Positions 14,338 through 63,604 are shown, counted from the stretch's first letter. The stretch is 64,000 nt of DNA from Halorhabdus utahensis DSM 12940 (GCF_000023945.1 NC_013158.1:1240001-1304000), one strand, 5' to 3'. Notes: a model not told the origin generated them from the letters alone. A program made the numbers and translations.

Positions 14338-14957
14338 GCGAGTCAACCAGCGCGAACGCGACCGAGACACCCACCGACGACCTCGAGGTGCTGTTCGTGG
14401 ATAACTTCGACTCGTTCACGTACAACCTGGTGGAGTACACGTCGGAATACGCCAACACGACTGTCGTGAAGAACACGGCCTCGCTGTCGGACGTTCGGGC
14501 AGCCGACCCGGACGCCATCGTCATCAGCCCGGGGCCGGGCCATCCGAGAAACGACCGCGACGTCGGGGTATCGACCGACGTCCTCCGGGAGATCAGTCCG
14601 GACGTGCCGACGCTGGGCGTCTGTCTGGGCCTCGAAGCGGCGGTCTACGAATACGGCGGCACGGTCGGCCACGCACCCGAGCCGATCCACGGGAAAGCAG
14701 CCTCGATTTCCCACGACGGCAAGGGCGTCTTTGCGGGGCTCGACCAGGGATTCCAGGGTGGGCGGTACCACTCGCTGGTCGCGGGCGATGTCCCCGATTG
14801 CTTCGAGGTGACCGCGACCACGGAAACCGACGACGCCGACCTCGTCATGGGAATCCGCCACCGCGAGCATCCAATCGAAGCCGTCCAGTTCCACCCCGAA
14901 TCGGTGCTGACAGCCGTCGGCCACGACGTGATCCGGAACTTCCTCGTGAGTGTCTAA
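14334..14957 (+). CDS. trpG: Anthranilate synthase component II (glutamine amidotransferase)
   Basis: This 207-aa class I amidotransferase releases ammonia from glutamine for TrpE. After a 17-residue acidic extension it has DNFDSFTYNLVEY, PGPGHP, the nucleophile in TLGVCLGLEA, and the HPESVLT segment containing the catalytic His and Glu. The usual GHQ after the nucleophile Gly is GLE here. The Cys-His-Glu triad remains, so it should be active. It ends the trp operon. trpC, trpA and trpB are not in this window. Confidence 0.94.
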   Translation: MSESTSANATETPTDDLEVLFVDNFDSFTYNLVEYTSEYANTTVVKNTASLSDVRAADPDAIVISPGPGHPRNDRDVGVSTDVLREISPDVPTLGVCLGLEAAVYEYGGTVGHAPEPIHGKAASISHDGKGVFAGLDQGFQGGRYHSLVAGDVPDCFEVTATTETDDADLVMGIRHREHPIEAVQFHPESVLTAVGHDVIRNFLVSV

Positions 14958-15044
14958 CCGGCTGCTGCGGTCGAAGGCTGATCGCGGCGAGGGGCGATGT
15001 CGCCGGACGAGCGGGCGTTCGCGCTCGACACACACCCGCCGCGG

Positions 15045-15052
15045 GTTTAAGT
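15045..15052 (+). promoter_or_regulatory. TATA element of the TlpA-like gene
   Basis: The element gtttaagt lies about 25-30 nt before ATG 15076, so the transcript is probably leaderless. Confidence 0.55.
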
Positions 15053-15075
15053 ATGGATCTCCCCCCGTTCCGGCT

Positions 15076-15732
15076 ATGCAACCACCCTCGCGACGTGCCC
15101 TTCTGGCGGCTGCCGGGACCGCCGCTGTCTCACTCGCCGGGTGTGCGAGCGACGGGACGGACTCGCCGGCAGACGGAGACACCGATCAGACAGCCTCGAC
15201 TACCGAAGCGGATACCGGGGAGCCGACCGCGGATCCCCGGACGACGGCCGCGGAGACCATGGCTGCGAAGACCACGGCCGGTTCGAACGACACCGAGCCG
15301 GTGTGGTACACTGAGCAGCTGACCGACGCCCGAACGGGCGAGAGGTTTTCCATTGCGGAGCTGAACGCCGACGGCCCGGTCCTGCTGGAGACGTTCGCCA
15401 TCTGGTGTTCGAACTGTCAGCGCCAGCAGGTCGAACTGCAAACGTTCCACGAGCAGGCACCCGACGACGTCACAACGGTCGCGCTGAACGTCGACCCCAA
15501 CGAGGACCGGAGTGCAGTCGCCGATCACGCGGAAGAAAACGATTTCGACTGGCGGTACGCAGTCTCGCCACCGGCAATCACGCAATCGCTGATCGGCGAA
15601 TTCGGGCGGTCGATCACCGTCCCGCCGCAGGTGCCAATGGTCCGCATCTGCCCCGGTGGCGAAACAACCCGGTTACCTGACGGGCACAAGTCGACGGATG
15701 ATCTCCTCTCGGCGCTCGACTCCTGCGAATGA
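15076..15732 (+). CDS. TlpA/ResA-like thioredoxin-fold lipoprotein
   Basis: This 218-aa protein is an exported, lipid-anchored thiol-disulfide oxidoreductase. The signal RRALLAAAGTAAVSLAGC has twin Arg and a lipobox Cys23. A Thr/Ala/Asp-rich linker (about 24-75) follows, then a thioredoxin fold with active-site WCSNC (Cys111 and Cys114) and the cis-Pro loop VPPQVPMVRI. TlpA-like proteins reduce extracytoplasmic disulfides, for example during cytochrome c assembly. The next gene, a CcdA-like membrane protein, overlaps its stop (ATGA) and would supply the electrons. Confidence 0.9.
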   Translation: MQPPSRRALLAAAGTAAVSLAGCASDGTDSPADGDTDQTASTTEADTGEPTADPRTTAAETMAAKTTAGSNDTEPVWYTEQLTDARTGERFSIAELNADGPVLLETFAIWCSNCQRQQVELQTFHEQAPDDVTTVALNVDPNEDRSAVADHAEENDFDWRYAVSPPAITQSLIGEFGRSITVPPQVPMVRICPGGETTRLPDGHKSTDDLLSALDSCE

Positions 15733-16496
15733 GTACGCACGCCGCCTTGCTCGAAGTGTTTCTCATCGGCCTCGGGACCCCGCTGACTGCCGCCTGCGCC
15801 CTACCGCTGTACCCCGGCTTTCTGGCCTATCTGGCCGACCAGAGCGCTCGCGGTGAGGAGGCCGGCTGGACGGTACCAGTCTGGCTGCTCGGCGTGCTCG
15901 TCCTCGCCGGGGCCGTCTCGTTCATGGGGCTTGCGGGCCTGCTGTTCTCGTTCGTGCTCGAAATCTCGCTGACAGCGGTCGTCGAAGTCGCCTCGCCAAT
16001 TGCTTTCGTGTTCGTGCTGGCAATTTCGATGGCCCTCATCGCCGACGCGGAGGTTTTCGGTCGGATCCCGGCGGTCGAACCCCCACAGACCCAGTATCCG
16101 AGTGCGACCGCCTTCGGCTATGGCTTTCTGTTCGGCGCGATCGTCCTGCCCTGTAACCCCGGATTCATCGCGCTGTTTTTCGCCCGCGTGCCGATCCTCT
16201 TCGATTCGGCACTGGCGTCACTGCTTGGCTTTCTCTCGTTCGGCCTCGGTCTGGGCGCACCGTTGCTGGCCCTGGCGGTGGTGTCGGAAAGTCTCGGTCA
16301 GCGGGCCACCCGCTGGCTTGCCCGTCACCGGACGGCGATCAACCGCGTTGCGGGCACGATCATGCTCCTCGTGTCGATCTACTACCTGCTGGTCGTCTTC
16401 GACGTCCTCGCGATGGTCGGGATCGAGGGTGCCGACGACCTGATCAGTGCGGGCTACGATGTCATCTTTGGCCCCCTCGGCGACCTCCGCCCCTGA
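15729..16496 (+). CDS. ccdA: CcdA-like cytochrome c biogenesis / thiol-reductant transporter
   Basis: This 255-aa membrane protein has about six transmembrane segments and two conserved Cys-Pro motifs, TAACALPLYPGF in the first segment and IVLPCNPGFIALFF in the fourth. These are the redox-active cysteines of the DsbD/CcdA core. It carries reducing equivalents from cytosolic thioredoxin across the membrane. It starts inside the stop codon of the TlpA-like lipoprotein gene, its likely electron acceptor. Confidence 0.9.
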   Translation: MSTHAALLEVFLIGLGTPLTAACALPLYPGFLAYLADQSARGEEAGWTVPVWLLGVLVLAGAVSFMGLAGLLFSFVLEISLTAVVEVASPIAFVFVLAISMALIADAEVFGRIPAVEPPQTQYPSATAFGYGFLFGAIVLPCNPGFIALFFARVPILFDSALASLLGFLSFGLGLGAPLLALAVVSESLGQRATRWLARHRTAINRVAGTIMLLVSIYYLLVVFDVLAMVGIEGADDLISAGYDVIFGPLGDLRP

Positions 16497-16638
16497 GTGC
16501 CCGTTGTCTCACCGAAGCCGGCCCTCACAGTGTACATTTGGCAGGCTCCGCTTCGGTTTCCTGGGCGTTCTTTAGTATGGGAGTGTGTGACTTGCCGACA
16601 CCCCAACAATTACTTATTGTCCATTTCAGGTGAGGGGT

Positions 16639-17808
16639 ATGGTTCCGGAGGCAGGCCTCGTCTGGCGGGGGTTTCACCACGCCTGGCGATACAACCACCG
16701 GCTGAATCGACTCGCGAGTTACCTCGCGTGGACCGGCGGGGACTGGGAGTGCGTCCACGCCGCGGCGTCGGGCACGGGTCCGGACACGGCCCAGTTCTGT
16801 GACCTCTACACGCTGATCGAAGACCCGGACGTGGCCTTTCAGTCGGTGACTGAACCGTTCGAGGTCACCGGTGACGAGAACGTCTCACACACCGTCTCCC
16901 GGACACTGACGATCGACCTGGAGAGCGAACTCCAGGGCCGGGACACGATCGAAGTGGTGCTGAACGGCTTCGACATCGCCGCCGCAAGTGACGCCGACAA
17001 GCTCCAGAAACTCCACCTGTCGGTCGGCGAGCCGACCGAGTCGGCCGACGGGACGTCTCTCGACGTTCCTGTCGAGGTCACCTTTCAGGGTGACTGTGGG
17101 ACGCCCGAATGTCGCGAGGACGGGGTCGACTACGGGGTCGACGTGCGCTACCTCGTGGTGGCGGGTGACGACTCGACCGTTCGCTCGGGGTCGACGGTCA
17201 GCGCTGGCTCGGACTACACCTGGGATCGGTCACAGGAACCCGATCACAAGGCCGACGGCCTCGCCCGGGCGTCGATCACCGATCCGGACCGCTGGACGGG
17301 CGATAGCGTCGAGAACGCGCTCGGCTTTACCGAACTGCAGGTCGATCTGACGAAAACCGGGGACCCGGCGCTCATCGCGGCCGTTGGCGAGCTGGCCGAC
17401 CACGCCGAGGGGATGCACTTTCTGGAACTCGACGCGTCGATCGAATCGATCACGGCGGACAACGGAACCCTCGACGCGGCGTTCCTGCTGTTCTACAAGA
17501 ACTGGGAGCGCGGGATGAAACAGCTCGTCCCGCCGGATTTCCTCCAGACGATCACCGACTTCATCCCCGATGACACCGAGTCCGCGATCCGCAACGACCC
17601 CGACCTCTCCTGGACGGACGTGATCGACGCCTCGATCCTCGCTCACCGCAGTGCGGGCCGGGCCGACATCGACGCCACCGCCCGCCTGCTGCAGTTCGAC
17701 GATCCGGAACGGTTCCACCACAACGCCGTCCCCGGCGATGTCGACTGGGAGGGCGAGAACGCCGATCCGAACAGCGACGACGCCGTCCAGCGCACCCTCA
17801 TCGAATGA
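16639..17808 (+). CDS. Unknown protein, first gene of the repeat-phosphoesterase-CHAT operon
   Basis: This is a 389-aa protein that I do not recognise. ATG 16639 is chosen because a purine-rich ribosome-binding sequence (aggtgagggg) lies just upstream; GTG 16630 is an alternative. There is no signal peptide or membrane segment. The N-terminus is aromatic, basic and helical (VWRGFHHAWRYNHRLNRL). Residues about 60-200 look rich in beta strands and contain a Cys pair (GDCGTPEC). Residues about 230-389 are mixed and acidic, with a conserved-looking FLLFYKNWERGMKQLVPPDF stretch. It precedes the 44-aa ORF by 17 nt and leads a four-gene operon, so it probably acts with the large helical-repeat phosphoesterase. 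Confidence 0.8.
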   Translation: MVPEAGLVWRGFHHAWRYNHRLNRLASYLAWTGGDWECVHAAASGTGPDTAQFCDLYTLIEDPDVAFQSVTEPFEVTGDENVSHTVSRTLTIDLESELQGRDTIEVVLNGFDIAAASDADKLQKLHLSVGEPTESADGTSLDVPVEVTFQGDCGTPECREDGVDYGVDVRYLVVAGDDSTVRSGSTVSAGSDYTWDRSQEPDHKADGLARASITDPDRWTGDSVENALGFTELQVDLTKTGDPALIAAVGELADHAEGMHFLELDASIESITADNGTLDAAFLLFYKNWERGMKQLVPPDFLQTITDFIPDDTESAIRNDPDLSWTDVIDASILAHRSAGRADIDATARLLQFDDPERFHHNAVPGDVDWEGENADPNSDDAVQRTLIE

Positions 17809-17825
17809 TCGACACACGCCACATC

Positions 17826-17960
17826 ATGATCCAGACCCACTCCCGCGCTTGTTCGATCGCATCGGCTGAACACCACTCGATCGTATCGGCCGACCAGTAC
17901 TCGGTCGCGTCGACTGAACAGCACCGTGACAGGGCTTCCGTCGGAGGTGCGTCGCGATGA
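17826..17960 (+). CDS. 44-aa microprotein with three 8-residue tandem repeats
   Basis: This small frame opens at ATG 17826, 17 nt after the previous stop, and ends in an ATGA overlap with the start of the 1195-aa gene. Its centre (17853-17924) consists of three exactly 24-bp imperfect tandem repeats encoding SIASAEHH, SIVSADQY and SVASTEQH. The repeats differ mostly at positions that conserve or resemble the amino acid, and the frame is kept. The coupling overlap and in-frame repeats argue for translation. The alternative is a noncoding repeat that happens to stay open. Function unknown; it may only couple translation. Confidence 0.5.
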   Translation: MIQTHSRACSIASAEHHSIVSADQYSVASTEQHRDRASVGGASR

Positions 17961-20900
17961 CTCACGACTTCGACGTCGCCGCCGATCTGCCGGGGGTGAG
18001 CCGGGAGACTGTCGCCAGGAAACTCCGCCGGACCGAACTCAGCGAGGACCACTACTTCGACGCGGTCGAAGTGAGCATGAAGCGCGACCGGGCGGAGGGG
18101 CGGGAGGTACTCGAAGGCCTCATGCGGACCAAATCGGCTTCCCGGGTGGGCCAGCGACTCCTCAAGGACGCCTGTGCCTGCGGCGACGACCAGATCCGCC
18201 GGGACGTTGTCGCAGCGTTCCGTGAGACCCGTCGGGAGGACGCTTTAGTGACCAGTGCGGGTCTGCTCACGGTCGAGGACGCGACGCAGGTGTTCAAGGA
18301 CTTCTTCGAGGCCGGTGGCGACACCCGTCCGATCGCCGAGTGGCTGTCGGCCATCGGCCCGGGCTATCGACGCGAGAAGCGCCGTGGGAACGTCGACCTC
18401 GAATACGACGGCTGGTTCAGCGACGCCTGGGACACGATCAAGGACGCGGGCAAGACCGTCGCCGAAGCGGTCAAGACGGTCGTCGACTCGGTCGTCGAGG
18501 CCGGCAAATCCTTCGCCGAGGTCGTCAGCGACGTCGTCGACTACGCCCAGCGTCGAGTCAACTCGATCGTCGAGTCCCTGCTCGACGCCGGCAAGACGGT
18601 TGCGGACATCATCTCGGGACTCGCCCAGGAGGCCTACGCGACGATCAAGAAGATCGTCAAGGCGATCATCTCGGCCGGGAAGTCACTGGGTGCCATCCTC
18701 CGGGAGGCGATCGACATCGGCGAGTCATTCCTCCGGAGCGTCGCTCGGGCGCTCCGACAGGCCGGGACCGCGATCTCGGACCTCGTGGTCGCGGCAGGGA
18801 AAGCGTCGGTCGACGTGCTCCGGGTCGTCTCCCGAGCGCTCGTCGCCATGGTGACCTACGCTGAGTCCCGGGCCAACTACATCATCAATACCATCAAAGA
18901 CGAACTCCCGGCCCTCGCCGAGGACATCATCGACATCCTCGGCGATTTCGTCGACGAGGCGTTCGAACTCGCGAAAAACGCCGTCGAAGACGGGCTCTCA
19001 GCCGTGCTCGATCAGGTTCGGAAGGCCGCAAACAGCATCCGCTCGACAGCGAGGTCCGTCCTGCAGGGCTTGCTCGAAGGGGGTCTCGCGCTGGGGGACC
19101 TCATCGCCCACCTCCACCAGGAGGCCAGCCAGTTCTTCGAAGACGCCGTCTCGCTGCTCGGCGAGATCGTCGATCGTGCTGAGGACCTCTTCGCGGCGGC
19201 ACTCGATCTGGGCGAGTGGGCGCTCGGCGAGGTCATGGAGGCCCTGGCGGCGGCCGGCGAGTCGGTCGCCGACCTGATCGCGTGGGCCAGGGAAGCCGGG
19301 GCCGCCGCGCTCGATGCCGTCGTCGACACCCTCGACGCCATCGGTGAACTCACCAGCGAGGCGCTCGCCGAACTCGGTCAGGCCGTCGTCGAACTCGGTC
19401 GGGGACTCACCAGGCTGGTCGAGCGGGTCGCCGACTGGGGCGAACTGGCGGCCCGAGCGGCCTTCGACGGCATCCTCGACGCCGGCGGGGCGGTCCTCGA
19501 CGTGCTGGACGCGCTGTGGGATCGGGCCCGGAACTTCCTCGAGGCGGGCATCGACACCCTCCTGCGAGTCGGCGCACGCATCCGGGACGTGCTCGCGGCG
19601 GGGCTGGACATGGGACTGGACATCCTCGGCGAGTTCGTCCGCCACCTCCGGGACCTCGGGCGGTCGATCTGGTACATCCTCGACTGGGTGGTAGACACGG
19701 TCGGCCGCGTCGGGGACGCACTCGAAGTCGTCTTCGAGACGCTGATGGACGTCGGTGTCGCGCTGGGCGAACTCGTCGCCTGGGCGGCCCGGCGGACTGC
19801 CGACATCATGCGGACGGGCTTCAGCGCGCTGCTCGCGATCGGGGTCGGCCTCGGCGAGATCCTCGTCGCGCTGTTGACCGATCCGGGCAACGTCTTCTCG
19901 ACAGCCATCGACGCGTTGCGCGACATCGGAACCAGCCTCGAGGAGTTCTTCACCGCAATCACCGACGCCGGCCAGCAGGTGCTGGGCCGGCTCTACCGTG
20001 CACTGGAGTCGATCGGCGTCGCGCTGGCCGACATGCTCGGCGCGCTGGTGTCACTCGGCGCGGAGACGTTCAAACAGTTGCTCGACGGCCTGCTGAAGAT
20101 CGGCGTCACGGCCTTCGAGGTCGTGCTGTGGGCCGCCGACCGAGCCTTCGACGTCTTCGGCTGGGTGATGGAGGTCGTCGAGGCCGCACTCGACTCGCTG
20201 CTGGACCTGATCGAGTGGGCGGCCGGCCTCGGCGGCCCCGTGCTCGAACAACTGGCCGACTGGTTCGCGAAGGGGGTCGAAAACGCCTTCGACTTCGTGC
20301 GTGACAAGGTGATCGTCCCGCTGGTCTCGGCAGCCAAACTCGGGCTGGTCGTCGCACTGGCATCGGTGAGTCTCCCCTTCCTTGTGGTCGCCTACGTCGT
20401 GCTGGGGTCGCTCGTCAATCCCGACCAGACGACCTACAAACACTGGCCGGACGATCTGCGGACGTTCGAGTGCGAACAGCGCGTCGAGATCCGCGAACTC
20501 TCGCCGCCGAGCGACGACCGCGGGATCGTCGTCTTCAGCGACCTCCACATGGAGGACCAGGACGACATCGACGCCGGTCTGGGCCATTTCCACGAGAACG
20601 CCGACCTCGTCGAGTCCGTGCTGACCGAGTACGCCAGCGAGGAGTCGGCGGGCTACGACTGGACGGTCGTGTTCAACGGCGACAGCGAGGAGTTCTGGGT
20701 CGACAACGACCTCACGTCGAGCGAACCCGCCGACAAGGTCGACGAGATCGTCGCCACCCACCCCACGGTGCACGAGACCGTCTCCGAGGACTTCTACAAG
20801 TTCGAGTCACCACGACGGTTCGTCAAGGTCCGCGGGAACCACGACGCGAGTTACAACGATCCCCACGTCGTCAACGCCTACGAGGACCACGGCTTCCCGG

Positions 20901-21544
20901 ATCTGGAAGTCTACGACTACGTCACCACGCAGTTCGACGGCGAGGACGTGCTCATCACTCACGGCCACCAGTTCGATCCCTGGAACTGCGACCCGAACAA
21001 CGACTTCGGGAAGTTCTCCAGCAACTTCGTCGCCGAGTCGATCGACGCGATCAGCAACACCCTCGAAGACGTCTTCGGCGAGGACGCCAGCCTGGAGGGC
21101 GAGACCATCGAGGTGTTCGACCTCGAGATTCCGGTCCACGCTATCGCGCCGTACTACGATCCCGGCGAGTGGCGACCGATGGTGGAGAACAGCGTCAAAT
21201 CCCCCTCGATCGAGGACGGTGCGATGTTCGAGGAAAGCGCCGTCGTCGAGACGATCCGCGAACTGGATGCGAGCATGATCATCGGTCATACCCACGGCCC
21301 GAAGGTCATGCAGGACGGGACCGATTCCAGCCGGTTCTACGTCAACAGCGGGACCGCAGGCTGGTGGGAGGACTGCGTCTGGACGGTCGAGATCACCGAA
21401 GCGAACGTGACGCTCAACGGCTTCACGCCGGACGGGAGTGGCGGTCACCAGCGCGAGTACGTCATCGCGCTGGACGATCCGACCGACGACGGGTCCTTCG
21501 GTGCGGGCGACCCCGACCGGCTGGTGTCGAATGGGACGTTCTGA
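17957..21544 (+). CDS. Giant 29-residue helical-repeat protein with C-terminal metallophosphoesterase
   Basis: This is a 1195-aa protein. Residues 1-150 are a charged helical head. Residues about 164-750 are amphipathic Ala/Leu/Asp-rich helices built from a 29-residue repeat. The repeat begins with a small residue plus Gly (AGKSLGAIL, IGVALADML, VGVALGELV). Units start at 182, 211, 240 and 269; at 375, 404, 433 and 462; at 509, 538 and 567; and at 599, 628, 657, 686 and 715. A hydrophobic segment (about 793-818) is probably transmembrane. Residues 855-1150 are a calcineurin-like phosphoesterase with all metal motifs: SDLH (861-864), NGDS (907-910), GNHD (960-963), THGH (1001-1004) and GHTH (1110-1113). 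It overlaps both neighbouring genes. The domain combination is unfamiliar to me and its substrate is unknown. Confidence 0.85.
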   Translation: MTHDFDVAADLPGVSRETVARKLRRTELSEDHYFDAVEVSMKRDRAEGREVLEGLMRTKSASRVGQRLLKDACACGDDQIRRDVVAAFRETRREDALVTSAGLLTVEDATQVFKDFFEAGGDTRPIAEWLSAIGPGYRREKRRGNVDLEYDGWFSDAWDTIKDAGKTVAEAVKTVVDSVVEAGKSFAEVVSDVVDYAQRRVNSIVESLLDAGKTVADIISGLAQEAYATIKKIVKAIISAGKSLGAILREAIDIGESFLRSVARALRQAGTAISDLVVAAGKASVDVLRVVSRALVAMVTYAESRANYIINTIKDELPALAEDIIDILGDFVDEAFELAKNAVEDGLSAVLDQVRKAANSIRSTARSVLQGLLEGGLALGDLIAHLHQEASQFFEDAVSLLGEIVDRAEDLFAAALDLGEWALGEVMEALAAAGESVADLIAWAREAGAAALDAVVDTLDAIGELTSEALAELGQAVVELGRGLTRLVERVADWGELAARAAFDGILDAGGAVLDVLDALWDRARNFLEAGIDTLLRVGARIRDVLAAGLDMGLDILGEFVRHLRDLGRSIWYILDWVVDTVGRVGDALEVVFETLMDVGVALGELVAWAARRTADIMRTGFSALLAIGVGLGEILVALLTDPGNVFSTAIDALRDIGTSLEEFFTAITDAGQQVLGRLYRALESIGVALADMLGALVSLGAETFKQLLDGLLKIGVTAFEVVLWAADRAFDVFGWVMEVVEAALDSLLDLIEWAAGLGGPVLEQLADWFAKGVENAFDFVRDKVIVPLVSAAKLGLVVALASVSLPFLVVAYVVLGSLVNPDQTTYKHWPDDLRTFECEQRVEIRELSPPSDDRGIVVFSDLHMEDQDDIDAGLGHFHENADLVESVLTEYASEESAGYDWTVVFNGDSEEFWVDNDLTSSEPADKVDEIVATHPTVHETVSEDFYKFESPRRFVKVRGNHDASYNDPHVVNAYEDHGFPDLEVYDYVTTQFDGEDVLITHGHQFDPWNCDPNNDFGKFSSNFVAESIDAISNTLEDVFGEDASLEGETIEVFDLEIPVHAIAPYYDPGEWRPMVENSVKSPSIEDGAMFEESAVVETIRELDASMIIGHTHGPKVMQDGTDSSRFYVNSGTAGWWEDCVWTVEITEANVTLNGFTPDGSGGHQREYVIALDDPTDDGSFGAGDPDRLVSNGTF

Positions 21545-22124
21545 ATCGGTCCTGCTGCTGGGGTTTTACCATCCCCGGTACGTCGACCCGCTCCGGGCGT
21601 GGGCCGACCGGCTGCGGGCGGCCGGGTGTTCGGTCACGGAGGGCTATCCGGATACCTGGTACCCAGAGGACGTCCTCGACGCCCTCACAGCCCCGCGCGA
21701 CCTGGTGGTCTACTTCGGCCACGGCGAGCCCGGTGCCTGGTCCGGGTTGGGTCGGATCGACGCCGCTGCCGTCGCCAGTGTCGGGGGGGAGCCACACCGG
21801 CTCGTCCTGAGTGCCTGCTGTAGCACGTTCGAAGGGAAGCGTGCGGGGAGCGAGGGGAGTCAGAAGAATTCCGATGGCGCTGCCGAGGGCGGCGACGGCG
21901 AACGAGCGCAGTCGGTCGGTGCGGCGTTTCTGGAGGGCGGTCTCGCCGAGGCCGTCGTCGGGTACGACGATCGCATCCGCCACGACGATAACCGCGACGT
22001 GCTCGATCACCTCCTGGCTGGCTACCGGACGGCGATCCGTGACGGCGACGACGGGGCAAGCGCGGTCCTGGATCGAGCGCGTCGGGATCCCGCACTTCGC
22101 GTCGCCGGGCAACGCGAGCGGTGA
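21531..22124 (+). CDS. CHAT/caspase-like putative protease
   Basis: This is a 197-aa protein from ATG 21531, overlapping the end of the large phosphoesterase gene by 14 nt. It has the caspase-fold signature: a hydrophobic strand then His in VVYFGHGEPG (His64), a second strand then Cys in LVLSACCSTF (Cys96/97), and a later GAAFLEGGLAEAVVGY segment. This matches CHAT domains and other clan CD peptidases. An insertion rich in Ser, Gly and Asp (about 104-125) may be a flexible or cleavage loop. Substrate unknown; its neighbours in the operon are obvious candidates. Proteolysis is inferred, not shown. Confidence 0.75.
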   Translation: MGRSESVLLLGFYHPRYVDPLRAWADRLRAAGCSVTEGYPDTWYPEDVLDALTAPRDLVVYFGHGEPGAWSGLGRIDAAAVASVGGEPHRLVLSACCSTFEGKRAGSEGSQKNSDGAAEGGDGERAQSVGAAFLEGGLAEAVVGYDDRIRHDDNRDVLDHLLAGYRTAIRDGDDGASAVLDRARRDPALRVAGQRER

Positions 22125-22516
22125 CCTCCCCAGATACGTCGACCGGGACTGTCAATCCTCGTGGGGGGGTTGCCACGAACTCCAGTCCGGCGACGTAGCG
22201 AAGACCCCCTGCTTTCGAGTCCGTCCTGCCACAGGGGAAGGGGGTTGGGATGCTTTCGTTCACTTTCACTCCGGTCTACGAACGCTTATGTATCCCCATC
22301 TCGTTGGCTGTGAGCGTGTGAGCCAGCCCTTTGAGCCTCGGGCTTTGACACGAAACATACGGATTATGACAGAGGTTCGGATCGCAAACAATCGCGCAAG
22401 CCAAAGCGTTATGAGGCATCCAGGCTAACAGGACTTCCACCATATATGATACAAACGAGAGCGAAAACAAGGGGACGGAGTACCGGATCGACATCCGCGT
22501 CGTGGGGGGCCGAACA
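22125..22516. other. Intergenic region upstream of nrdJ
   Basis: This 392-nt stretch has no accepted gene. A G-rich tract (gtgggggggttg) and a later gaccccct could pair as the 3' structure of the preceding operon. The AT-rich catatatgata (about 22441-22452) is the probable TATA element of nrdJ, giving a leader of about 45 nt. I looked for a cobalamin riboswitch core, since the enzyme uses B12, and did not find one. Confidence 0.5.
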
Positions 22517-25500
22517 GTGAGCGACGCCGAACTCGCCGTCGACGAGGTCACGCTGCCGATCAAGCGTATCGAGGGCGACACCCTCGCCGACCGGCTGACC
22601 GACAACGCCTACCACAACATTCTGCCGGCACGGTACCTTCGGAAAGACGCCGACGGCGAACTCGTCGAGCAACAGGAGGATCTCTTCGAACGCGTCGGGA
22701 AGAACATCGCGCTGGCCGAAGCCGTCTACGAAGCGCGAAATCAGGACGTCGAGATCACCGTCACGCCCGACCAGCTCAAACCCGACCATCCCCGTCGGGA
22801 CGAGCTCGCCGAGGAAGTCTTCGGGAAAGGGACATCCATTGGCGACGACGCCGAGACGACCCTCTCGGTCTATAACGTCAACAAGTTCGCCTACGAGACT
22901 GTCGTCCCCGAACTCCCCGCGGACGTCCGCGAGCACGTCGAGGAGACCGCCACGGAGTTCCAGGACCTGATGGAGAATCTCTCCTTTATGCCGAACTCGC
23001 CGACGCTGATGAACGCCGGCGACGAACTTCAGCAGCTCTCTGCGTGTTTCGTCGACAGTCCCGAGGACGACATCGATGACATTCATCAAACAGCGAAAGA
23101 AGCCGCACAGGTTTTCCAGAGCGGCGGCGGAATGGGGTACGCCTTCTGGCGATTACGGCCCTATGGAGATGCTGTCGGATCGACGGGAGGAATCGCTTCC
23201 GGTCCGATAACGTTCATGCGGACGTTCGATCAGATGTGCGAGACGATCGCCCAGGGCGGTGCCCGGCGGGGTGCCCAGATGGGCGTCATGCGGGTCTCCC
23301 ATCCGGACGTCATCCAGTTCATCCACGCCAAGAACAAGGACGTCTCCCTGGCGCGGACCTTGCGGCTGAACGATCCCGACGATTTCACCCACACGTCCTT
23401 CTCGGACGCCTTGGAGGAAGCCCGCGAATTGATCGACGACGACGGGCGGGTTCCCGAACACCTCCGCAACGCCGTCGAGGGCCACCTCTCGAACTTCAAC
23501 ATCTCGGTGGGCATCACCGACGAGTTCATGGACGCCCTCCAGAACGACGAGGAGTTCACGTTCACCAATCCCCGGACGGGCGATCCCCACATCGTCACCG
23601 CCGAAACCAAGGAACTGTACGACATGTTCGGCCTCGGCGAGTACGTCGAGGTCGGCGAGGAACTGTCGATTCCAGCCAGCGAGCTCTGGGACGACATCGT
23701 CGAGGGCGCTCACGAGAACGGCGAACCCGGCGTGATCTATCTCGAACGCGCCAACAAGGAACATTCCTTCGACGTGGAAGAAAATTCAGACCATAGAATC
23801 CTTGCAACAAACCCGTGTGGTGAACAACCCTTGGAGGAGTACGAGGCCTGCAACCTCGGCCACATCAACCTCTCGACGCTGGCCGCCGAGGGGGCCCCGG
23901 ACTGGCGGGTCTGGTCCGAACGCCACGCCGACGACTATGACGACTTCGAGGCGGCGGTCGAGGCGTATCTCGACGAAGCCATCGACGTCGAGGAACTCGA
24001 ATACCGCATCGAGATGGCGACCCGGTTCCTCGAGAACGTCGTCACGATGTCGGACTTCCCGGTCGAGAAGATCGAGGAGAAAGTCCGGGACATGCGCAAG
24101 ATCGGGCTGGGGATCATGGGACTGGCCCAACTGTTCATCCAGCTCGGCGTCAAGTACGGCAGCGACGAGGGCGACGCGATCGCCGGCCACCTCATGCAGA
24201 AGATCAACCACGACTCCAAGTGGGCGAGCCACGAACTCGCCGAGGAGCGGGGCGTCTTCAACGACTGGGAGGACTCCAAATACGCCGACCCGACCGAGTA
24301 CCGCGAGTGGTTCGAACACTACGTCGGCGAGGACGCCGACGACTGGGCCGAGGGCTTCCCGATCCGCAACCACAACACGACGACCATCGCTCCGACCGGC
24401 ACGACCAGCATGGTCGGGAACACGACGGGTGGCTGTGAGCCCGTCTACAACGTCGCCTACTACAAGAACGTCTCCGACGACGTCCAGGGCGACGAGATGC
24501 TCGTGGAGTTCGACGACTACTTCCTCCGCGTGCTGGAGGAGAACGGCATCGACGTCGAGACCGTCAAGGAGGAGGCCCAGGAACAGATGGCGACAAACGA
24601 GTTCGACGGCGTCGAGGGGCTCTCGACGGTGCCCGACGCCATCGGCGAACTGTTCGTCACGACGGGCGACCTCTCGCCCAAGCAGCACGCCTCGATCCAG
24701 TGTACGCTCCAGGACGGCGTGGACAGCGCCATCTCGAAGACGGTCAACGCGCCCAACGACTCCACGATCGAGGACGCCAAAGATGTCTTCGAGTACATCT
24801 ACGAACACGGCGGCAAAGGCGTCACCTATTACCGGGACGGCACCCGGAGCAAGCAGGTGCTGACCACCAGGGCGGAGAACACCGACTTCGCCGACATGGA
24901 CACCGAGGAGGTCATCGCCCAGATCGAGGCCGTCTTCGGCGGGATCGAGGCCTTCCTCGATGACGAGGACGTCAGGGCAGCCCTCGACGGTGAAATCGAA
25001 ACGCTCCTCGGCGAAGCCGACGGCGAATACGCCGACTACGCCAAAAAGCGCCCGCGGCCTGACGTCCTCCATGGCGTGACCCAGCGTATCGACACCGGCT
25101 ACGGGAAGGTCTACGTCAACATCAACGAGGATCCCGAAGCCGAACGGCCCTTCGAGCTGTTCGCCAACATCGGCAACTCCGGCGGCTTCACGGCGTCGTT
25201 CACCGAGGCCCTCGCCAAGACCGTCTCGGCCGCACTCCGGGCCGGCGTCGATCCCAACGAGATCGCCGGCGAACTCCAGGGTATCCGCTCACCGAAGGTC
25301 GCCTGGGACAAGGGCGAACAGATCCAGTCGATCCCGGACGCCATCGGCACGGCGATGCGCCGATACCTCGATGGCGACATCGAGCGGGCCTATCCACAAC
25401 AGCAGACGCTCGAAGAGACCGCCGACGAAGAGGATCCGGAAGCCATGGGCCACTCGACTGACGGCGGCGCGACGACTGCGCCGAGTGAATCGGTTGAGCC

Positions 25501-25636
25501 GACCGAGCCGAGTGGTGACCAGCAGGAACTCATCGAGAACGGCGAGAGTCCCGAATGTCCCGAGTGTGGGTCGATGTCGCTGTATTACTCCGAAGGCTGC
25601 AAGACCTGTGAGTCCTGTGGCTGGTCGGAGTGTTGA
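22517..25636 (+). CDS. nrdJ: Adenosylcobalamin-dependent (class II) ribonucleoside-diphosphate reductase
   Basis: This 1039-aa enzyme makes deoxyribonucleotides using a cobalamin-generated thiyl radical. It shows the family order: MPNSPTLMNAG, SACFVDSPED with a redox Cys, VFQSGGGMGYAFWRLRP, the active-site NPCGEQPLEEYE (Cys434), and NTTTIAPTGTTSMV. A C-terminal zinc-ribbon tail has four CxxC-type cysteines (CPECG...CKTCESCG). GTG 22517 is favoured because a G-rich ribosome-binding stretch precedes it; GTG 22502 is an alternative. No intein is present, though this family often hosts them. Codon usage becomes AT-rich around two conserved motifs (about 23090-23215 and 23770-23835). Confidence 0.95.
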   Translation: MSDAELAVDEVTLPIKRIEGDTLADRLTDNAYHNILPARYLRKDADGELVEQQEDLFERVGKNIALAEAVYEARNQDVEITVTPDQLKPDHPRRDELAEEVFGKGTSIGDDAETTLSVYNVNKFAYETVVPELPADVREHVEETATEFQDLMENLSFMPNSPTLMNAGDELQQLSACFVDSPEDDIDDIHQTAKEAAQVFQSGGGMGYAFWRLRPYGDAVGSTGGIASGPITFMRTFDQMCETIAQGGARRGAQMGVMRVSHPDVIQFIHAKNKDVSLARTLRLNDPDDFTHTSFSDALEEARELIDDDGRVPEHLRNAVEGHLSNFNISVGITDEFMDALQNDEEFTFTNPRTGDPHIVTAETKELYDMFGLGEYVEVGEELSIPASELWDDIVEGAHENGEPGVIYLERANKEHSFDVEENSDHRILATNPCGEQPLEEYEACNLGHINLSTLAAEGAPDWRVWSERHADDYDDFEAAVEAYLDEAIDVEELEYRIEMATRFLENVVTMSDFPVEKIEEKVRDMRKIGLGIMGLAQLFIQLGVKYGSDEGDAIAGHLMQKINHDSKWASHELAEERGVFNDWEDSKYADPTEYREWFEHYVGEDADDWAEGFPIRNHNTTTIAPTGTTSMVGNTTGGCEPVYNVAYYKNVSDDVQGDEMLVEFDDYFLRVLEENGIDVETVKEEAQEQMATNEFDGVEGLSTVPDAIGELFVTTGDLSPKQHASIQCTLQDGVDSAISKTVNAPNDSTIEDAKDVFEYIYEHGGKGVTYYRDGTRSKQVLTTRAENTDFADMDTEEVIAQIEAVFGGIEAFLDDEDVRAALDGEIETLLGEADGEYADYAKKRPRPDVLHGVTQRIDTGYGKVYVNINEDPEAERPFELFANIGNSGGFTASFTEALAKTVSAALRAGVDPNEIAGELQGIRSPKVAWDKGEQIQSIPDAIGTAMRRYLDGDIERAYPQQQTLEETADEEDPEAMGHSTDGGATTAPSESVEPTEPSGDQQELIENGESPECPECGSMSLYYSEGCKTCESCGWSEC

Positions 25637-37662: not shown

Positions 37663-39744
37663 ATGGCGACAGATGACGACGTTCACCCGGCAGCATCACG
37701 GGAGGACAAAAAAGTGTCCAGTGTGGAGCAATCCGACCCGGCAAACCAACAAGAGACCGACTCATCACGAGACAGAGCCCTGGGGACAGATATGCAGACG
37801 ACGCGACGATTGTTCCTCAGTCTCGCGGGGGTCGGAGTGAGTGCCGGGGCAGGATGCACCACGCTGGGGCCGGACGATGATGGGAACACGGAGACACCCA
37901 CGAGCACGCCGACAGGAACTGAAACGGACACACCGACGACAACAGACACGAACACACCGACAGAGACCGACACGCCGACGGAGACTGACACGGACACACC
38001 GACTGAAACCGAGTCCGACACACCGACTGAAACCGAAGCGGAAGAGACGACTGAGGAAGGAAGAGAGACGGAGGAAGAGACGAACGAGGAAGCGGACGAT
38101 GAGACGGTTTACGACGTCACGGTTGACTCCGTCGACGCCCGTTCGATGGACATGCTGGACTGGAACTCCCAGTACGCGGGCTGGCCATACATTTGGGGGC
38201 GGTGGGCTGCCTACGAGCGCTTTGTGCAGTATGATCTGGAGAACAACGTCTGGATCCCCCGCCTCATCGATAACTGGTCGATTGACGGGACGACAATCAC
38301 GCTGGACATCCGTGATCCACATAAATACGAGGACGGGGACGAGGTGACGGCCGAGGATGTCAAGGCCAACATCGTGATGAATCTCGCGACCGGGGCACCG
38401 TTCTCGGAGATCTTCGAATCGTTCGACGAACCCGACGACAAAACCCTCGTGATCGAGACGAAGAAGTCTGTCAACAAGACGATCCTCGAGTTTTCGATCT
38501 TCTCGCAGTTGCAACAGGCCAAAATGGCACCACCGTACGACGAGTTCTATCAGCGCTTTTGGGTAGACGGCGAAGAGGGCGTCGGCAGAGATATTCAGGC
38601 CATGGAACCCAACGAGCCCCACTACGTCTCGGGTATCTTCGGCCAAATGAGGAAGGACTCCGAGCAGTACCTCATGGAACGCAACCCCGAGCACCCGGAC
38701 GCCGATAACGTCAACTTCGAGCGGTACCGGTTCCGGACCTACCCGGGGAACCAGGCCAAGTGGGACGCGATGTTAGCCGATGAGGTGGACACGGTGATGA
38801 GTGCGTTCACCCCGGCGAATGTCAAAGCGGAGCTCCCGGATCACTGGCAGGAGTACAACTTCCCCGGCAACTGGGGCGTCGGGCTACTGCCCCAGCACGA
38901 TCCGGACACCGCGCCCCACATTTCAAAGCGACCGGTTCGCCAGGCCATCACGCATGCGATTAGCCGCGAAGCTGTCCGGAGCGCCGGTGGTCCGCGGGTC
39001 AAGACGGCATTCCCGACCCCAGCCGCGATCTCCGCGAGCGTGCAGGATGAATGGATTGACGTCGATGGGACGTTCGGCCCAATGCAGGGAGGCAAAGCGA
39101 AAGCCGCCGAACGCATGCAAGACGCCGGCTACGAGAAAAACGCCAACGGTATCTGGGCGATGGACGGCGACACCGTTTCCTTCGACATCTCAGTGCCGGG
39201 TAGCTGGAGTGACTGGGTGACGGTGATCCAGGCAACGGTTTCCCAGCTAACCCAGGCCGGGTTCGACGCACGACTGAACCGCGTCAACAACATCTATAGG
39301 ATTGTCGCCAGCGGCGAGTTCAAGATGGCTGCCCGCCCGTGGTCGTCGGGTTACGCACGGTCGTCGTTCCCGTATTTCCCGCTGGACTGGGTGTTCGGGC
39401 GAGCCTACGGCAACGCTCACAGCTACCCCGGTGGCGAGGAAGGCACCGAGATCACGGTTCCCGCCATGGACGGAGACGGCACCATGTCGGTCGATGTCCA
39501 GCAGCACCTCGCGGATCTCTCGATGGCTCGTGGCGACGACGTCAAGCCGATCGTCGAGGAACTCGCGTGGGTTTCCCATCAGGATCTACCGATGATACCG
39601 ATCGTCGAAAAGCTGGAGCAGTCGTTCATCAGCACGAACAATCTCTCTGCGCCCGATCCTGACTCTTTGGCCGGCAACGTCAAATGGCCGTGCTTTTACG
39701 CTCCACGGGAGGGCGAGATGCAGTGGCAGGGCGGCCAAGAGTGA
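37663..39744 (+). CDS. ABC transporter substrate-binding lipoprotein (family 5, dipeptide/oligopeptide type)
   Basis: This is a 693-aa exported binding protein. The signal TTRRLFLSLAGVGVSAGAGC carries a twin-Arg and a lipobox Cys. ATG 37792 (MQTTRRLFL) may be the true start, because a 43-residue hydrophilic extension before a Tat signal is unusual. A Thr-Pro-Thr-Glu repeat linker follows (37890-38100). The mature domain has DppA/OppA-like elements: WSIDGTTITLDIRDPHKYED, DGDEVTAEDVKANI and RPVRQAITHAISREAV. No permease or ATPase genes are adjacent, so the transporter partners lie elsewhere. Confidence 0.88.
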   Translation: MATDDDVHPAASREDKKVSSVEQSDPANQQETDSSRDRALGTDMQTTRRLFLSLAGVGVSAGAGCTTLGPDDDGNTETPTSTPTGTETDTPTTTDTNTPTETDTPTETDTDTPTETESDTPTETEAEETTEEGRETEEETNEEADDETVYDVTVDSVDARSMDMLDWNSQYAGWPYIWGRWAAYERFVQYDLENNVWIPRLIDNWSIDGTTITLDIRDPHKYEDGDEVTAEDVKANIVMNLATGAPFSEIFESFDEPDDKTLVIETKKSVNKTILEFSIFSQLQQAKMAPPYDEFYQRFWVDGEEGVGRDIQAMEPNEPHYVSGIFGQMRKDSEQYLMERNPEHPDADNVNFERYRFRTYPGNQAKWDAMLADEVDTVMSAFTPANVKAELPDHWQEYNFPGNWGVGLLPQHDPDTAPHISKRPVRQAITHAISREAVRSAGGPRVKTAFPTPAAISASVQDEWIDVDGTFGPMQGGKAKAAERMQDAGYEKNANGIWAMDGDTVSFDISVPGSWSDWVTVIQATVSQLTQAGFDARLNRVNNIYRIVASGEFKMAARPWSSGYARSSFPYFPLDWVFGRAYGNAHSYPGGEEGTEITVPAMDGDGTMSVDVQQHLADLSMARGDDVKPIVEELAWVSHQDLPMIPIVEKLEQSFISTNNLSAPDPDSLAGNVKWPCFYAPREGEMQWQGGQE

Positions 39745-44994: not shown

Positions 44995-46059
44995 TCAGGG
45001 ATTCGAACTTGGGCTGACAGCGCCAAGCCCCTGTTTCGGAGTTCCCACGATGGAGATATCAGCAGGATCGTAGACAAGAGTATTGGTGTACTCGATATCC
45101 GTGTTGTCCACGTACAGCGTTGTAGCGCTAGTCCCGAGATCCGCGGTCACATCACCGTTCTGCGTCGTGAGTGTGGAATCGTTCAGCCACATCGATCCGA
45201 CCGATTCAAGCACGATCCCTGCGTTTCCACCGGTCATGTCCGCACCAGTCGCATCGAGTGTTCCGCTAGTGGCGTTCAAGACAGTGCCACCGTTCGATGC
45301 CTGTACGGACGCATAGCGGGCCGTGACCGTTTGTGCCTGTAGATCTATATCATAGCTCCCTGAGCTCGTAAGTGTCGCGTCGTCGATATCCAGATCGGAA
45401 TCAGCAGTGATGTCGATAGCTCTCCCGGAATCGATAGTGGTTGACTGGGCAGTGATCGTCTGTGCCTGTAGGTATATGTCACAATTACTCGATAGATGTG
45501 CATTATCCAGATCAAGATGTCCGTCAGTACTGACGGTGATCGCCCCGTTATCACTCTCAACTGTTACCCCATTGAGATCAATGTCTTTCGTCGCTTCAAT
45601 CGTGACGTCGCCAGTCTGGCCGATCACCGAGTCCGCACTGATCGATATTTCCCCATCCGTCGCATTGAGATGAATACCACCGTTCTTGGCATCAAAACCA
45701 GCAGATGAGGTGATGCTCTTTGCCGTAATCGAGACATTACCGTTTCCGTTCCGTGACACTGAACCGATATCGCTTGGAATGACAAGGTTAGCGTCGGGAT
45801 CGTTGAAATCTCGAAGACGGTTCTTGTTAATTGTCTGTTCGTCAGAATCGTACTCACCATCGCCATCGGCATCATTGTACGCCTTCTTTCCTGGCGGTGT
45901 ACCACCGCCCGGACCACCACCTTGGAACGAGTCCGCAGCCTGGATCGTTCCGGACGCCTGCTCGGTGTCTGAGAAGTAACTGACGGTGGCCGCGCTACCA
46001 GCCGTCACGAATAGGACCACACAGAGTACAGCCGCAAAGGACCGAAGCGGGACAGTCAT
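44995..46059 (-). CDS. Exported beta-helix-like protein with SipW-type signal
   Basis: This is a 354-aa exported protein. The signal FVTAGSAATVSYFSDTEQASG fits SipW-processed signals, with the FSDTE box. Beyond a Gly/Pro linker and a Ca-binding-like DADGDGEYDSDE stretch, residues 95-340 are repeated strands of 18-30 residues rich in Thr, Ser, Asp and Asn (for example GDVTIEATKDIDLNGVTVES). This suggests a parallel beta-helix, as in adhesins. Its start overlaps the signal peptidase stop (46056-46059). G+C is lower than in the rest of the window. Confidence 0.75.
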   Translation of the reverse strand: MTVPLRSFAAVLCVVLFVTAGSAATVSYFSDTEQASGTIQAADSFQGGGPGGGTPPGKKAYNDADGDGEYDSDEQTINKNRLRDFNDPDANLVIPSDIGSVSRNGNGNVSITAKSITSSAGFDAKNGGIHLNATDGEISISADSVIGQTGDVTIEATKDIDLNGVTVESDNGAITVSTDGHLDLDNAHLSSNCDIYLQAQTITAQSTTIDSGRAIDITADSDLDIDDATLTSSGSYDIDLQAQTVTARYASVQASNGGTVLNATSGTLDATGADMTGGNAGIVLESVGSMWLNDSTLTTQNGDVTADLGTSATTLYVDNTDIEYTNTLVYDPADISIVGTPKQGLGAVSPSSNP

Positions 46060-46616
46060 CCGGTTTCACCCTCTGTACGTTCCGGTTCGTCCTCATCCCG
46101 GGCTACAAACAATTCCCATAGCTCAGTCGCTGCCAACAGCAACGCAGGGACAATAATCAGTAACGCGATACCAAGATCCGTGCCGGCGAACGCGACGACG
46201 TACCCCATATACGGAATCGAAAAAGCAACCCGACCGATGACCTGATCCGCCGAGACAAGAGTCGGATCGGGCCCCTCGTTCGCGTCGCCCTTCGTGCGGT
46301 ACAACTCTTGACCATCGCGCTCAACGACCTCCACGATCCGATGTGTCACCGGATTCTCGGATCCACGACGGTACGTGATTATCTCGTTCTCGGACAATCG
46401 GTCGGGAGTGACATCAGCCACGTATACGACCGATCCCGCATCGATCGTCGGCGACATACTGTCGGATTGGACAACGTAACTCTGGTCAGCGCCAACGATC
46501 TGGGGGATCGCGATCGAGACGAACAGAAGGACGACGGCGATGAACAACACCGTTCCGAGAAGTTTGCCAGTCCGCCGCCAGTCGATCGCGCGCACGGCCG
46601 GCAGTGATCGACTCAC
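46056..46616 (-). CDS. sipW: SipW-type signal peptidase I
   Basis: This is a 186-aa ER-type signal peptidase. An N-terminal membrane helix (about 18-40) leads to the catalytic Ser box SDSMSPTIDAGSVV (Ser53). His92 in NPVTHRIVEV replaces the bacterial Lys, as in archaeal, ER and SipW enzymes. RTKGDANEGPDP and the conserved Asp follow, with a second membrane helix near 145-170. It is surrounded by three proteins with the matching signal type, so it probably matures them. Confidence 0.9.
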   Translation of the reverse strand: MSRSLPAVRAIDWRRTGKLLGTVLFIAVVLLFVSIAIPQIVGADQSYVVQSDSMSPTIDAGSVVYVADVTPDRLSENEIITYRRGSENPVTHRIVEVVERDGQELYRTKGDANEGPDPTLVSADQVIGRVAFSIPYMGYVVAFAGTDLGIALLIIVPALLLAATELWELFVARDEDEPERTEGETG

Positions 46617-46649
46617 GACCGATCACCGTCGTGTGCGCTCGCTATCCGG

Positions 46650-47258
46650 TTACTGACTGTCATTCTGGTTCAGATGGAAGTCGAACGTAACCGCCACGCC
46701 ATCGCCCTGGAACTTGTTCTTGACGTCCTTCAGTTTGAAGCCGACAGTAAAAGTCGTTCCGTCGCCAGGATCTGGCAGGTCCGTTAGATCGTTCGGTGTC
46801 GCTTCCCCCGAGGTCTGATCATTATATTTGAGGTCAAAAAGCGTAGGTGGCGAGCCACCATCTATCCTTCCGGTGAGATCAGTGTTATCGTAATCGAGGG
46901 TCTGGACTTCCAGGTTCTGGGCGAACTCCTGGGCCGTCTTGTCGTGATTCCCGGTGTTGCCGTCGTCTTCGGTGTAATCCACGTCGACATCAAGCGATCC
47001 CGAGAGCGATCCGTCACTAACCAGCGTCACGCTTTTCGTAGTCGTTTCGTTCGGTTTTAGATTCCCACTGAACGCGAACGAGCCGCCGCTGTCGAACGAG
47101 AGATTCAGTGTGCCGGCTTGTACAGTGTTCCCAGTGCTGGATTCAGTATCGGAGAAAAGTGCCATCGTCCCTGCCCCGGCGGCGGCACTGGCGGCACCGA
47201 CGGTCACGAGACCGCCGAGCAGCCGTCGCCGGGTGACTTTCTTTCCCTCGTCCGACAT
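46650..47258 (-). CDS. TasA/camelysin-like SipW-dependent exported protein
   Basis: This is a 202-aa protein from ATG 47258. The signal KVTRRRLLGGLVTVGAASAA has a twin-Arg-like start and then AGTMALFSDTESSTGNTVQAG. FSDTE plus GNTVQAGTL is the usual mature start of TasA/camelysin-type proteins. The rest looks like a beta-sandwich with LKPNETTTKSVTLVSDGSL and ends in HLNQNDSQ. Such proteins assemble into extracellular fibres by donor-strand exchange. It is paralogous to the 47362-48003 gene. Confidence 0.85.
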   Translation of the reverse strand: MSDEGKKVTRRRLLGGLVTVGAASAAAGAGTMALFSDTESSTGNTVQAGTLNLSFDSGGSFAFSGNLKPNETTTKSVTLVSDGSLSGSLDVDVDYTEDDGNTGNHDKTAQEFAQNLEVQTLDYDNTDLTGRIDGGSPPTLFDLKYNDQTSGEATPNDLTDLPDPGDGTTFTVGFKLKDVKNKFQGDGVAVTFDFHLNQNDSQ

Positions 47259-47361
47259 TACGCGAGTGTGTCTTGCCGTCGTTTCTCTGAATTGTATCGT
47301 ACTCAACTATCCAGAAGATCTTTCCCACTTTCGGGACTCGGAATGGGCTTCGAAGACGGAT

Positions 47362-48003
47362 TTATTGGCCGTCCTGCTGGTTCAGCATGAACTCAAACGT
47401 TACATCCACTCCTTCGCCTTGGAAATCGTTACCAGCGTCTTCATGCAAGCTGAGTCCGATTTTGAAATCTGTTCCATCTCCAGGATCTACATGATTGCTT
47501 AGATCATCATCCCCATCGGCATTGTTCGCTAAATCGTAAAGGGACTCGTAAGGATTGGCACTTGAATTGTCGAATACGTCGTTGGGATCCGTTTCGCCAC
47601 TGATGTTGCTAATCAGACCGCCGTCATAATTGAGGGTATCCACCTGCACGGCCTTCGCAAACTTTTCCTTATCGATATCGCCAGTGATAGACTCATCGTC
47701 GTTATTGTCGGAGACAGTGACAGACACATCTAAGGAACCAGATATACTCCCAGTGTTTTTTAGAGTCCACGTATGTTCATTCGCTGACCCCCCCGGCTTT
47801 ATTCCATCAAATGTGAAGGTGCTTATGCTAGCCTCATTAGTTGTAAGCTCTATCGTTCCTGCCTGTACCGTGTTTCCGTCACTCGTTTCCGAATCACTGA
47901 ACAGCGCAAACGTCCCGGCACCAGCCGCCGCACTCGCGGCCCCGACCGTAATCAATCCGCCCAGTACACGCCGCCGTGTGAATTTGCTGTCTTCCTCTGT
48001 CAT
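47362..48003 (-). CDS. TasA/camelysin-like SipW-dependent exported protein
   Basis: This is a 213-aa paralogue of the next protein. The signal FTRRRVLGGLITVGAASAA leads into AGTFALFSDSETSDGNTVQAG. The mature part has the same order of motifs: TFDGIKPGGSANEHTWTLKN, SGSLDVSVTV, DPGDGTDFKIGLSL, and the end EFMLNQQDGQ. The gene has A/T-rich codons unlike most of the window. It leads the cluster, with a TATA element about 65 nt upstream. Confidence 0.85.
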   Translation of the reverse strand: MTEEDSKFTRRRVLGGLITVGAASAAAGAGTFALFSDSETSDGNTVQAGTIELTTNEASISTFTFDGIKPGGSANEHTWTLKNTGSISGSLDVSVTVSDNNDDESITGDIDKEKFAKAVQVDTLNYDGGLISNISGETDPNDVFDNSSANPYESLYDLANNADGDDDLSNHVDPGDGTDFKIGLSLHEDAGNDFQGEGVDVTFEFMLNQQDGQ

Positions 48004-48499
48004 AGTTCGATCGCTGTGGGTTGCGCCCTCAAAAGGCGTTTCTACGTAAGTAGACACCCTACACCCACTTAAATCACCGTACGTCTATTCTCCGCATGAA
48101 AAAGCAAGCAAAAATTTGATAAATAGGTATAAAACTGGAGAAAATCAAGTGAATAGCCAGAATACGGATCGTCCCGCCACCAATCCGGCTCAGACTGTGA
48201 AGTCTCACAACACCTCGTCGTGATAATAGCGTATCAGAACGCTTCTCTGTCCCGATTTCGCTAGTTTTAGCGATCCTATCTCTTGAGAGAACAGTATCAC
48301 CAGTGATATCGTTGGTTTCAGACTCCAAAACGCGTGTTTCCTGAGTGTTTCCATCAGCGAAAACTAATTCCCATACGATCTATCTATCGAGAATACACTG
48401 TCAGCAGACAGAAATCCAGGATCGAGCGGCCGAAGCTGCGAGTATCGATTTTGAAGAGTGTGGGCAGACGCGCATGGGTCTCGGCGGCCTCGACAGCGT
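48004..48499. other. AT-rich region upstream of the SipW cluster
   Basis: About 495 nt of low G+C. A TATA-like element (cacttaaatc, plus-strand view, about 48066-48075) can drive the leftward TasA-like genes. Between 48090 and 48410 the sequence is AT-rich with no frame showing halophile codon bias. From about 48420 it returns to high G+C next to the decayed K+ channel. Confidence 0.5.
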
Positions 48500-61556: not shown

Positions 61557-61686
61557 TTATCTGACAGGTCATACTGTACCCGCACGGATAATCGTGATTG
61601 ACACGGCAGCACGTGTCAGTGCTCGTGGGAAGGGGCGAGGCGTGCCGACAGCTACGACACAGCCGAGGTGATTGTCGGGGAGACGC

Positions 61687-62871: not shown

Positions 62872-62874
62872 CGC

Positions 62875-63342: not shown

Positions 63343-63512
63343 GCGTCTACCCCCTCGATCTCGATCTGGGTGCGTTTGAGTCCGTGCTGGGAGCCGAACT
63401 CGGCGAGAGTGTGCTCCTCGGCGACGTTCTCGTTCGGTGCCTCGATCTCTGTCTCGAACGATTGCCAGCCGTCACGGGCCTGGAAGGTCCCGGTAACTGT
63501 ATATTCGCTCAT
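63339..63512 (-). CDS. rpl18a: 50S ribosomal protein L18Ae (L20e)
   Basis: This is a 57-aa archaeal ribosomal protein, MSEYTVTGTFQARDGWQSFE then NENVAEEHTLAEFGSQHGLK. Length and motif order match the family. ATG 63512 is chosen over an upstream start because the family begins there. Its partners pfdA and ftsY follow directly, as in many archaea. The frequent upstream genes L39e, L31e and eIF6 are absent here. Confidence 0.92.
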   Translation of the reverse strand: MSEYTVTGTFQARDGWQSFETEIEAPNENVAEEHTLAEFGSQHGLKRTQIEIEGVDA

Positions 63513-63604
63513 GTTCACTGAAAGGGAGGGCAATGGGGAAGTATCTTCTCATCGAGTGTTCGCCGAAGCCGAGAGGGGCTCGCCAGTCGTTCCCCCCACA
63601 GGCC

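Follow-up and report, generated by a model that had tools for sequence, protein, structure and literature searches.

A conserved archaeal gene pair of Halorhabdus utahensis encoding a giant repeat phosphoesterase and a predicted clan-CD cysteine peptidase

The core feature of the 64,000-nucleotide stretch of the Halorhabdus utahensis DSM 12940 genome analysed here (NC_013158.1:1240001-1304000, hereafter the window) is a two-gene unit on the plus strand. Its first gene, P3 (17957-21544), encodes a giant protein of 1195 residues in which a long array of amphipathic repeats and a hydrophobic segment precede a calcineurin-like phosphoesterase domain, and its second gene, P4 (21531-22124), encodes a predicted clan-CD cysteine peptidase of 197 residues. 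The two genes overlap by 14 nt (21531-21544) and adjoin in all four loci at which the pair was found, a distant archaeon included. The pair would be a variant of the known arrangement in which a clan-CD protease is encoded beside its target. In the open-access papers searched, the pair is undescribed.

Composition of the locus and its relatives

A first-pass annotation of this DNA had proposed a system of four components, and its frames and spacings are present: P1 (16639-17808, plus strand), a micro-ORF (17826-17960, plus strand) that starts 17 nt past the end of P1, an ATGA overlap of the micro-ORF with P3, and the overlap of P3 with P4. Only the coupling of P3 and P4 survives as a system, since we judge the micro-ORF not to be a gene and the distant genome that carries the pair lacks P1. 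The spacer of a second Halorhabdus species (G006) orthologous to the micro-ORF has stops in every frame, and the micro-ORF itself has an atypical, non-haloarchaeal codon GC and contains a 24-nt tandem repeat. Because it is not conserved, we regard its overlap with P3 as coincidental. A Shine-Dalgarno-like GGAGGTG (17943-17949, plus strand) lies 7 nt 5' of the P3 start, with GGAGATG as its counterpart in G006. That GC-rich DNA produced all four frames by chance, without any functional connection between them, is extremely improbable. Such DNA yields many spurious ORFs, the micro-ORF among them, but P1, P3 and P4 are under purifying selection relative to G006 (dN/dS 0.24-0.30, a faster protein evolution than in most housekeeping neighbours), P1 and P3 have codon GC of the haloarchaeal type, and the order and overlap of P3 and P4 are kept across families; for P3-P4 this explanation is already refuted.

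P1 is a genuine, constrained orphan gene upstream of the pair and outside its invariant core. The 389-residue protein is acidic, has no membrane segment, is 70% identical in G006 (dN/dS 0.27), and found no family match in Pfam, PADLOC or the other profile libraries searched. Its model, of low confidence (pLDDT 43), may contain a beta-sandwich domain at about residues 66-180; Foldseek matches to viral jelly rolls had low TM-scores and, given this model, are uninterpretable. P1 is preceded by a TATA-like box, TTACTTAT (16610-16617, plus strand), and G006 shows ATACTTAA at the equivalent place. In both species some 25 nt separate the box from the ATG, a spacing that would point to a leaderless transcript.

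Homologues were sought in 2000 archaeal genomes (some repeated) and by scanning the genomes of 84,980 species, and adjacent P3 and P4 were recovered at four loci. In G006 the complete operon occupies the corresponding site; its two genes have the same 14-nt overlap, and its P3 is 76% identical to that of the window. A halobacterial MAG of another family (QS_1_68_20, G063) retains a decayed remnant in which P3 stops where the phosphoesterase begins; both genes are broken and P1 is absent. The fourth locus, on a 41% GC contig of a distant archaeon (G752), holds an intact pair without P1; its P3 has 890 residues, about 12 repeats, 42% identity and the same domain order, and its P4 starts one base downstream of P3 (a 1-nt gap). 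All three haloarchaeal copies, the remnant included, thus have the 14-nt overlap in common. Among phages, plasmids and viral contigs, no real homologue of P3-P4 was found. The pair is very rare among archaeal genomes, although these counts may underestimate it, because pattern-based scans can miss diverged relatives. Several further matches were set aside: weak ones in G385, G281, G001, G158 and G160 were noise by score (the region was inspected for G385 only), weak phosphoesterase (MPE) matches in G162, G025, G375 and G077 come from another haloarchaeal phosphoesterase family, which has no P4, and those in G689 and G687 are to a helical-repeat protein and to a 764-aa frame containing a weak P4-like stretch, with no P3-P4 pair seen in either genome.

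The operon occupies a variable site. The site is empty in five other genomes of the genus (G001-G005), where only about 300-420 bp separate trpG from the ribonucleotide reductase (RNR) gene, whereas in the window and G006 the operon lies between them, immediately before the conserved RNR promoter region. In the window, the interval from trpG to this promoter region (14958-22240) also holds thioredoxin-like and DsbD-like genes (14950-16496) on the trpG side; the extra genes on that side differ in G006, where they encode a subtilase and a small membrane protein (L006:13618-15488). Between the window and G006, dS of the operon is four to five times that of its nearest neighbours. A recently exchanged allele was considered as the source of this value and dropped, since regional dS ranges from about 0.05 to 0.87 and trpG itself reaches 0.78. 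Such a mosaic between adjoining genes extends over window positions 1412-52885 in the comparison with G006 (L006, L063 and L064), and suggests recombination tracts between the two species. The RNR gene is uninterrupted in the window (22502-25636) and in G006; in the five other Halorhabdus genomes its frames are much longer (1445-2761 aa), and in L040 and L042 it is interrupted by an intein-like start, CLTEDTTVTVEGKGVVSIADVEPGD.

The predicted peptidase P4

Two residues of P4, His64 (21720-21722, within YFGHG) and Cys97 (21819-21821, within SACC), are invariant in all four members. The first-pass annotation had named Cys96/97 as the catalytic position of a CHAT-like protease; since the G752 homologue reads SLSCGS, with Ser at the position of Cys96, we assign the catalytic role to Cys97. 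The His/Cys pair was rightly noticed, but the CHAT label is too narrow. The CHAT profile PF12770 matched neither the window P4 nor that of G006, and the comparison of P4 with haloarchaeal CHAT proteins by hhalign was not significant (E 0.011, probability 4%). By sequence, the nearest family is Peptidase C25, the gingipains: PF01364 matched all four members, with a best E of 8.7e-7 in G752, and against a cut-off of 23 bits G752 scored above it (28.9) and G006 (22.5) and the window (17.0) below it. Unlike gingipains, which are large and secreted, P4 is small, and the C25 match spans the catalytic stretch only. Because PF12770 missed and the CHAT profile comparison was not significant, we place P4 at the level of clan CD, as a candidate member of either C25 or CHAT. 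As a separate observation, haloarchaea contain CHAT-domain proteins (L017-L024; frames of about 690-1070 aa, mostly under the Pfam cut-off) that share a conserved signature, HYIGH / LNACxSY.

Structure prediction of P4 bears out this placement at modest confidence. An AlphaFold2 model built from three sequences (pLDDT 59) has six strands (residues 6-11, 34-38, 58-62, 92-94, 142-145 and 189-192), with strand 3 directly followed by His64 and strand 4 by Cys97. In clan CD, the His follows strand 3 and the Cys strand 4 of a six-stranded sheet (PMC4357240), and P4 is thus predicted to have both the His-first His-Cys dyad and the strand layout of this clan. In a Foldseek search the model retrieved the TPR-CHAT of Craspase first (E 2.0e-4, probability 1.00) and separase next. 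The coupling of a caspase-fold protease to a giant membrane phosphoesterase, as originally suggested, is supported by these structural matches, by the C25 matches and by the adjacency of the two genes at every locus found.

The giant repeat phosphoesterase P3

P3 has four parts. Its N-terminal domain (residues 1-152; 17957-18412, plus strand) belongs to no known family and is the fastest-evolving part of the protein (dN 0.32 against G006), and its conserved core is present in G752. There follow an array of about 22 amphipathic 29-residue repeats (residues 153-784; 18413-20308), a hydrophobic, putative membrane segment (residues ~795-818; 20339-20410) and the calcineurin-like phosphoesterase domain (residues 854-1195; 20516-21541), all on the plus strand. 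This combination of repeat array, membrane segment and complete phosphoesterase domain had been read from the sequence at the outset, and each element was recovered. The 29-residue period is highly significant (lag-29 autocorrelation +0.34, against -0.68 +/- 0.06 in shuffles), and the helical hydrophobic moment reaches 1.52 (shuffles, 0.66 +/- 0.04). The periodicity has secondary peaks at 11 and 18 residues, in keeping with a continuous amphipathic helix, in which 3, 5 and 8 turns take up 11, 18 and 29 residues. Between the two lineages the arrays differ in length by 272 residues, or 9 x 29 + 11, so that the helical phase would be kept. The hydrophobic segment holds the highest Kyte-Doolittle window of the protein (2.54, at residues 797-798), and its position is conserved in G752.

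Like phage tape-measure proteins and the tail of ZorA (Zorya), P3 has long alpha-helical repeat stretches, and its repeats match tape-measure PHROGs (down to E 2.1e-15), tape-measure proteins of Gordonia phages, and the ZorA tail model of PADLOC (ZorA2, E 1.6e-5). Together with a length that varies in near-29-residue steps of repeat number, these matches could make P3 a relic of a phage or tailocin tape measure, or a part of a contractile injection apparatus. Such an origin is disfavoured and in our view very improbable. No tail, sheath or baseplate genes were recognised beside any of the loci (the window, L006, L007 and L067), no tape-measure protein among the matches bears a phosphoesterase of the P3 type, and the matches fall mainly on the helical repeats and over many unrelated tail families, as composition and periodicity predict. 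P3 also lacks motor, plug or tail domains. Because no tail or motor genes are nearby, we read the tape-measure and ZorA matches as a common helical periodicity.

The phosphoesterase domain is assigned by profile (PF12850, 30.6 bits; cut-off 27) and by its motifs SDLH, GDSEEFW, GNHD, HGHQFDP and GHTH; the D-x-H, GD, GNHD, H and GHTH motifs are conserved in the four members, with HGH changed to HGQ in G752. By both measures the domain belongs to the calcineurin-like phosphoesterases. As a whole architecture, P3 matches no family in the searched libraries. The nearest wider relatives of the domain are membrane-embedded metallophosphoesterases of haloarchaea (about 450-470 aa, e.g. L055:8593-10002), which are weakly similar to LpxH models and share with P3 the HGHQxDPN signature and membrane association, but lack the repeat array, the N-terminal domain and an adjoining P4. 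This haloarchaeal family, also represented by L056, L057 and L058, has a hydrophobic insert and no NCBIfam name.

These relatives, the slow evolution of the phosphoesterase domain (the slowest part of P3, with a dN of 0.09 against G006) and the suitability of amphipathic repeats for membrane surfaces are the grounds for the main rival to our reading of P3 as the partner of a protease. P3 would then be a phosphodiesterase that lies on the membrane and acts on lipid or isoprenoid pyrophosphates, P4 would be its maturation or quality-control protease, and neither death nor defence would be involved. Patchy distribution and the empty sites in related genomes oppose a housekeeping lipid function, and we consider this role unlikely.

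Proposed function and known systems

Since the translational coupling of P3 and P4 is conserved and substrates of CHAT-type proteases are commonly encoded by neighbouring genes (PMC9729208), we propose that the two proteins form a dedicated protease-partner pair. P3 is most likely the dedicated partner and substrate of P4, although P4 could instead process another protein. Cytosolic P4 would be produced in step with P3 through translational coupling, and the amphipathic helical repeats and hydrophobic segment of P3 would keep the phosphoesterase membrane-bound. Once triggered, P4 would cut P3 and so change where the phosphoesterase or the membrane-active helices are located or how active they are, and the outcome could be a stress, antiviral or cell-death response; P1 might act as a sensor. 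Against the proposal stand the modest confidence of the P4 model, the housekeeping character of the neighbours in the window, the scarcity of defence-family matches described below, and the fact that neither a cleavage site nor a trigger could be demonstrated. Stated broadly, P3-P4 would be an accessory module with P4 as a dedicated processing protease that switches a membrane-tethered phosphoesterase in one of these responses, a proposal that we consider tentative, falling somewhat short of probable. A more specific form, in which the caspase-fold protease controls a membrane-tethered phosphoesterase on a length-variable amphipathic scaffold and the two serve as a death or immunity switch in haloarchaea and a distant archaeal lineage, is rather doubtful.

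The type of enzyme and its scattered occurrence make a role in defence or death plausible. As a special case of the proposal above, a virus signal might activate P4 so that fragments of P3 bring about death or arrest of the host. Immune effectors that pair a caspase-fold protease with a co-encoded target are known, such as Craspase-Csx30 and CHAT-gasdermin (PMC9729208), and the sporadic insertion site, the decayed copy in G063 and the fast evolution of P1 and the P3 N-terminal domain would agree with such a strict abortive-infection system. Against it, PADLOC returned no defence-family match for P1 or P4, and for P3 only the repeat-region ZorA2 match and a marginal one to DpdD (E 0.034). Viral contigs yielded no homologues, and the suggested co-location with defence islands found no backing in defence neighbours near the locus, the neighbours in the window being housekeeping genes. 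We regard this case as somewhat unlikely.

Two known systems resemble the pair as protease-partner arrangements. In type III-E CRISPR, Craspase/TPR-CHAT (Csx29) is, like P4, a caspase-fold protease with an adjacently encoded target, Csx30, and its TPR-CHAT is the top structural match of the P4 model; P4 differs in having neither a TPR sensor nor a CRISPR partner, and in being paired with a giant membrane phosphoesterase. The CHAT proteases of bacterial gasdermin systems likewise stand beside a membrane-acting partner, possibly as a suicide switch. P3 differs from that partner in joining helical repeats to an enzyme domain, in being a predicted cleavage partner only, and in having no gasdermin match in the Pfam search. 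Regulated proteolysis in archaeal cell death and immunity is little understood; one report describes caspase-like activity in Haloferax, although archaea seemed to be without caspase homologues (PMC3615174). H. utahensis can be cultured and has been sequenced, and with a clear predicted catalytic Cys in P4 and P3 as an evident candidate target, the relation of the two proteins is directly testable.

Elsewhere in the window, a 675-aa ORF at 61672-63699 has tandem repeats at 62892-62957 and no Pfam match, and a solute-binding-protein-like gene (37663-39744) contains in-frame tandem repeats at 37905-38036. A lower-GC cluster at 44995-48057, strongly diverged from G006, encodes two camelysin/TasA-like proteins (Peptidase_M73) and, next to them, two unassigned proteins.
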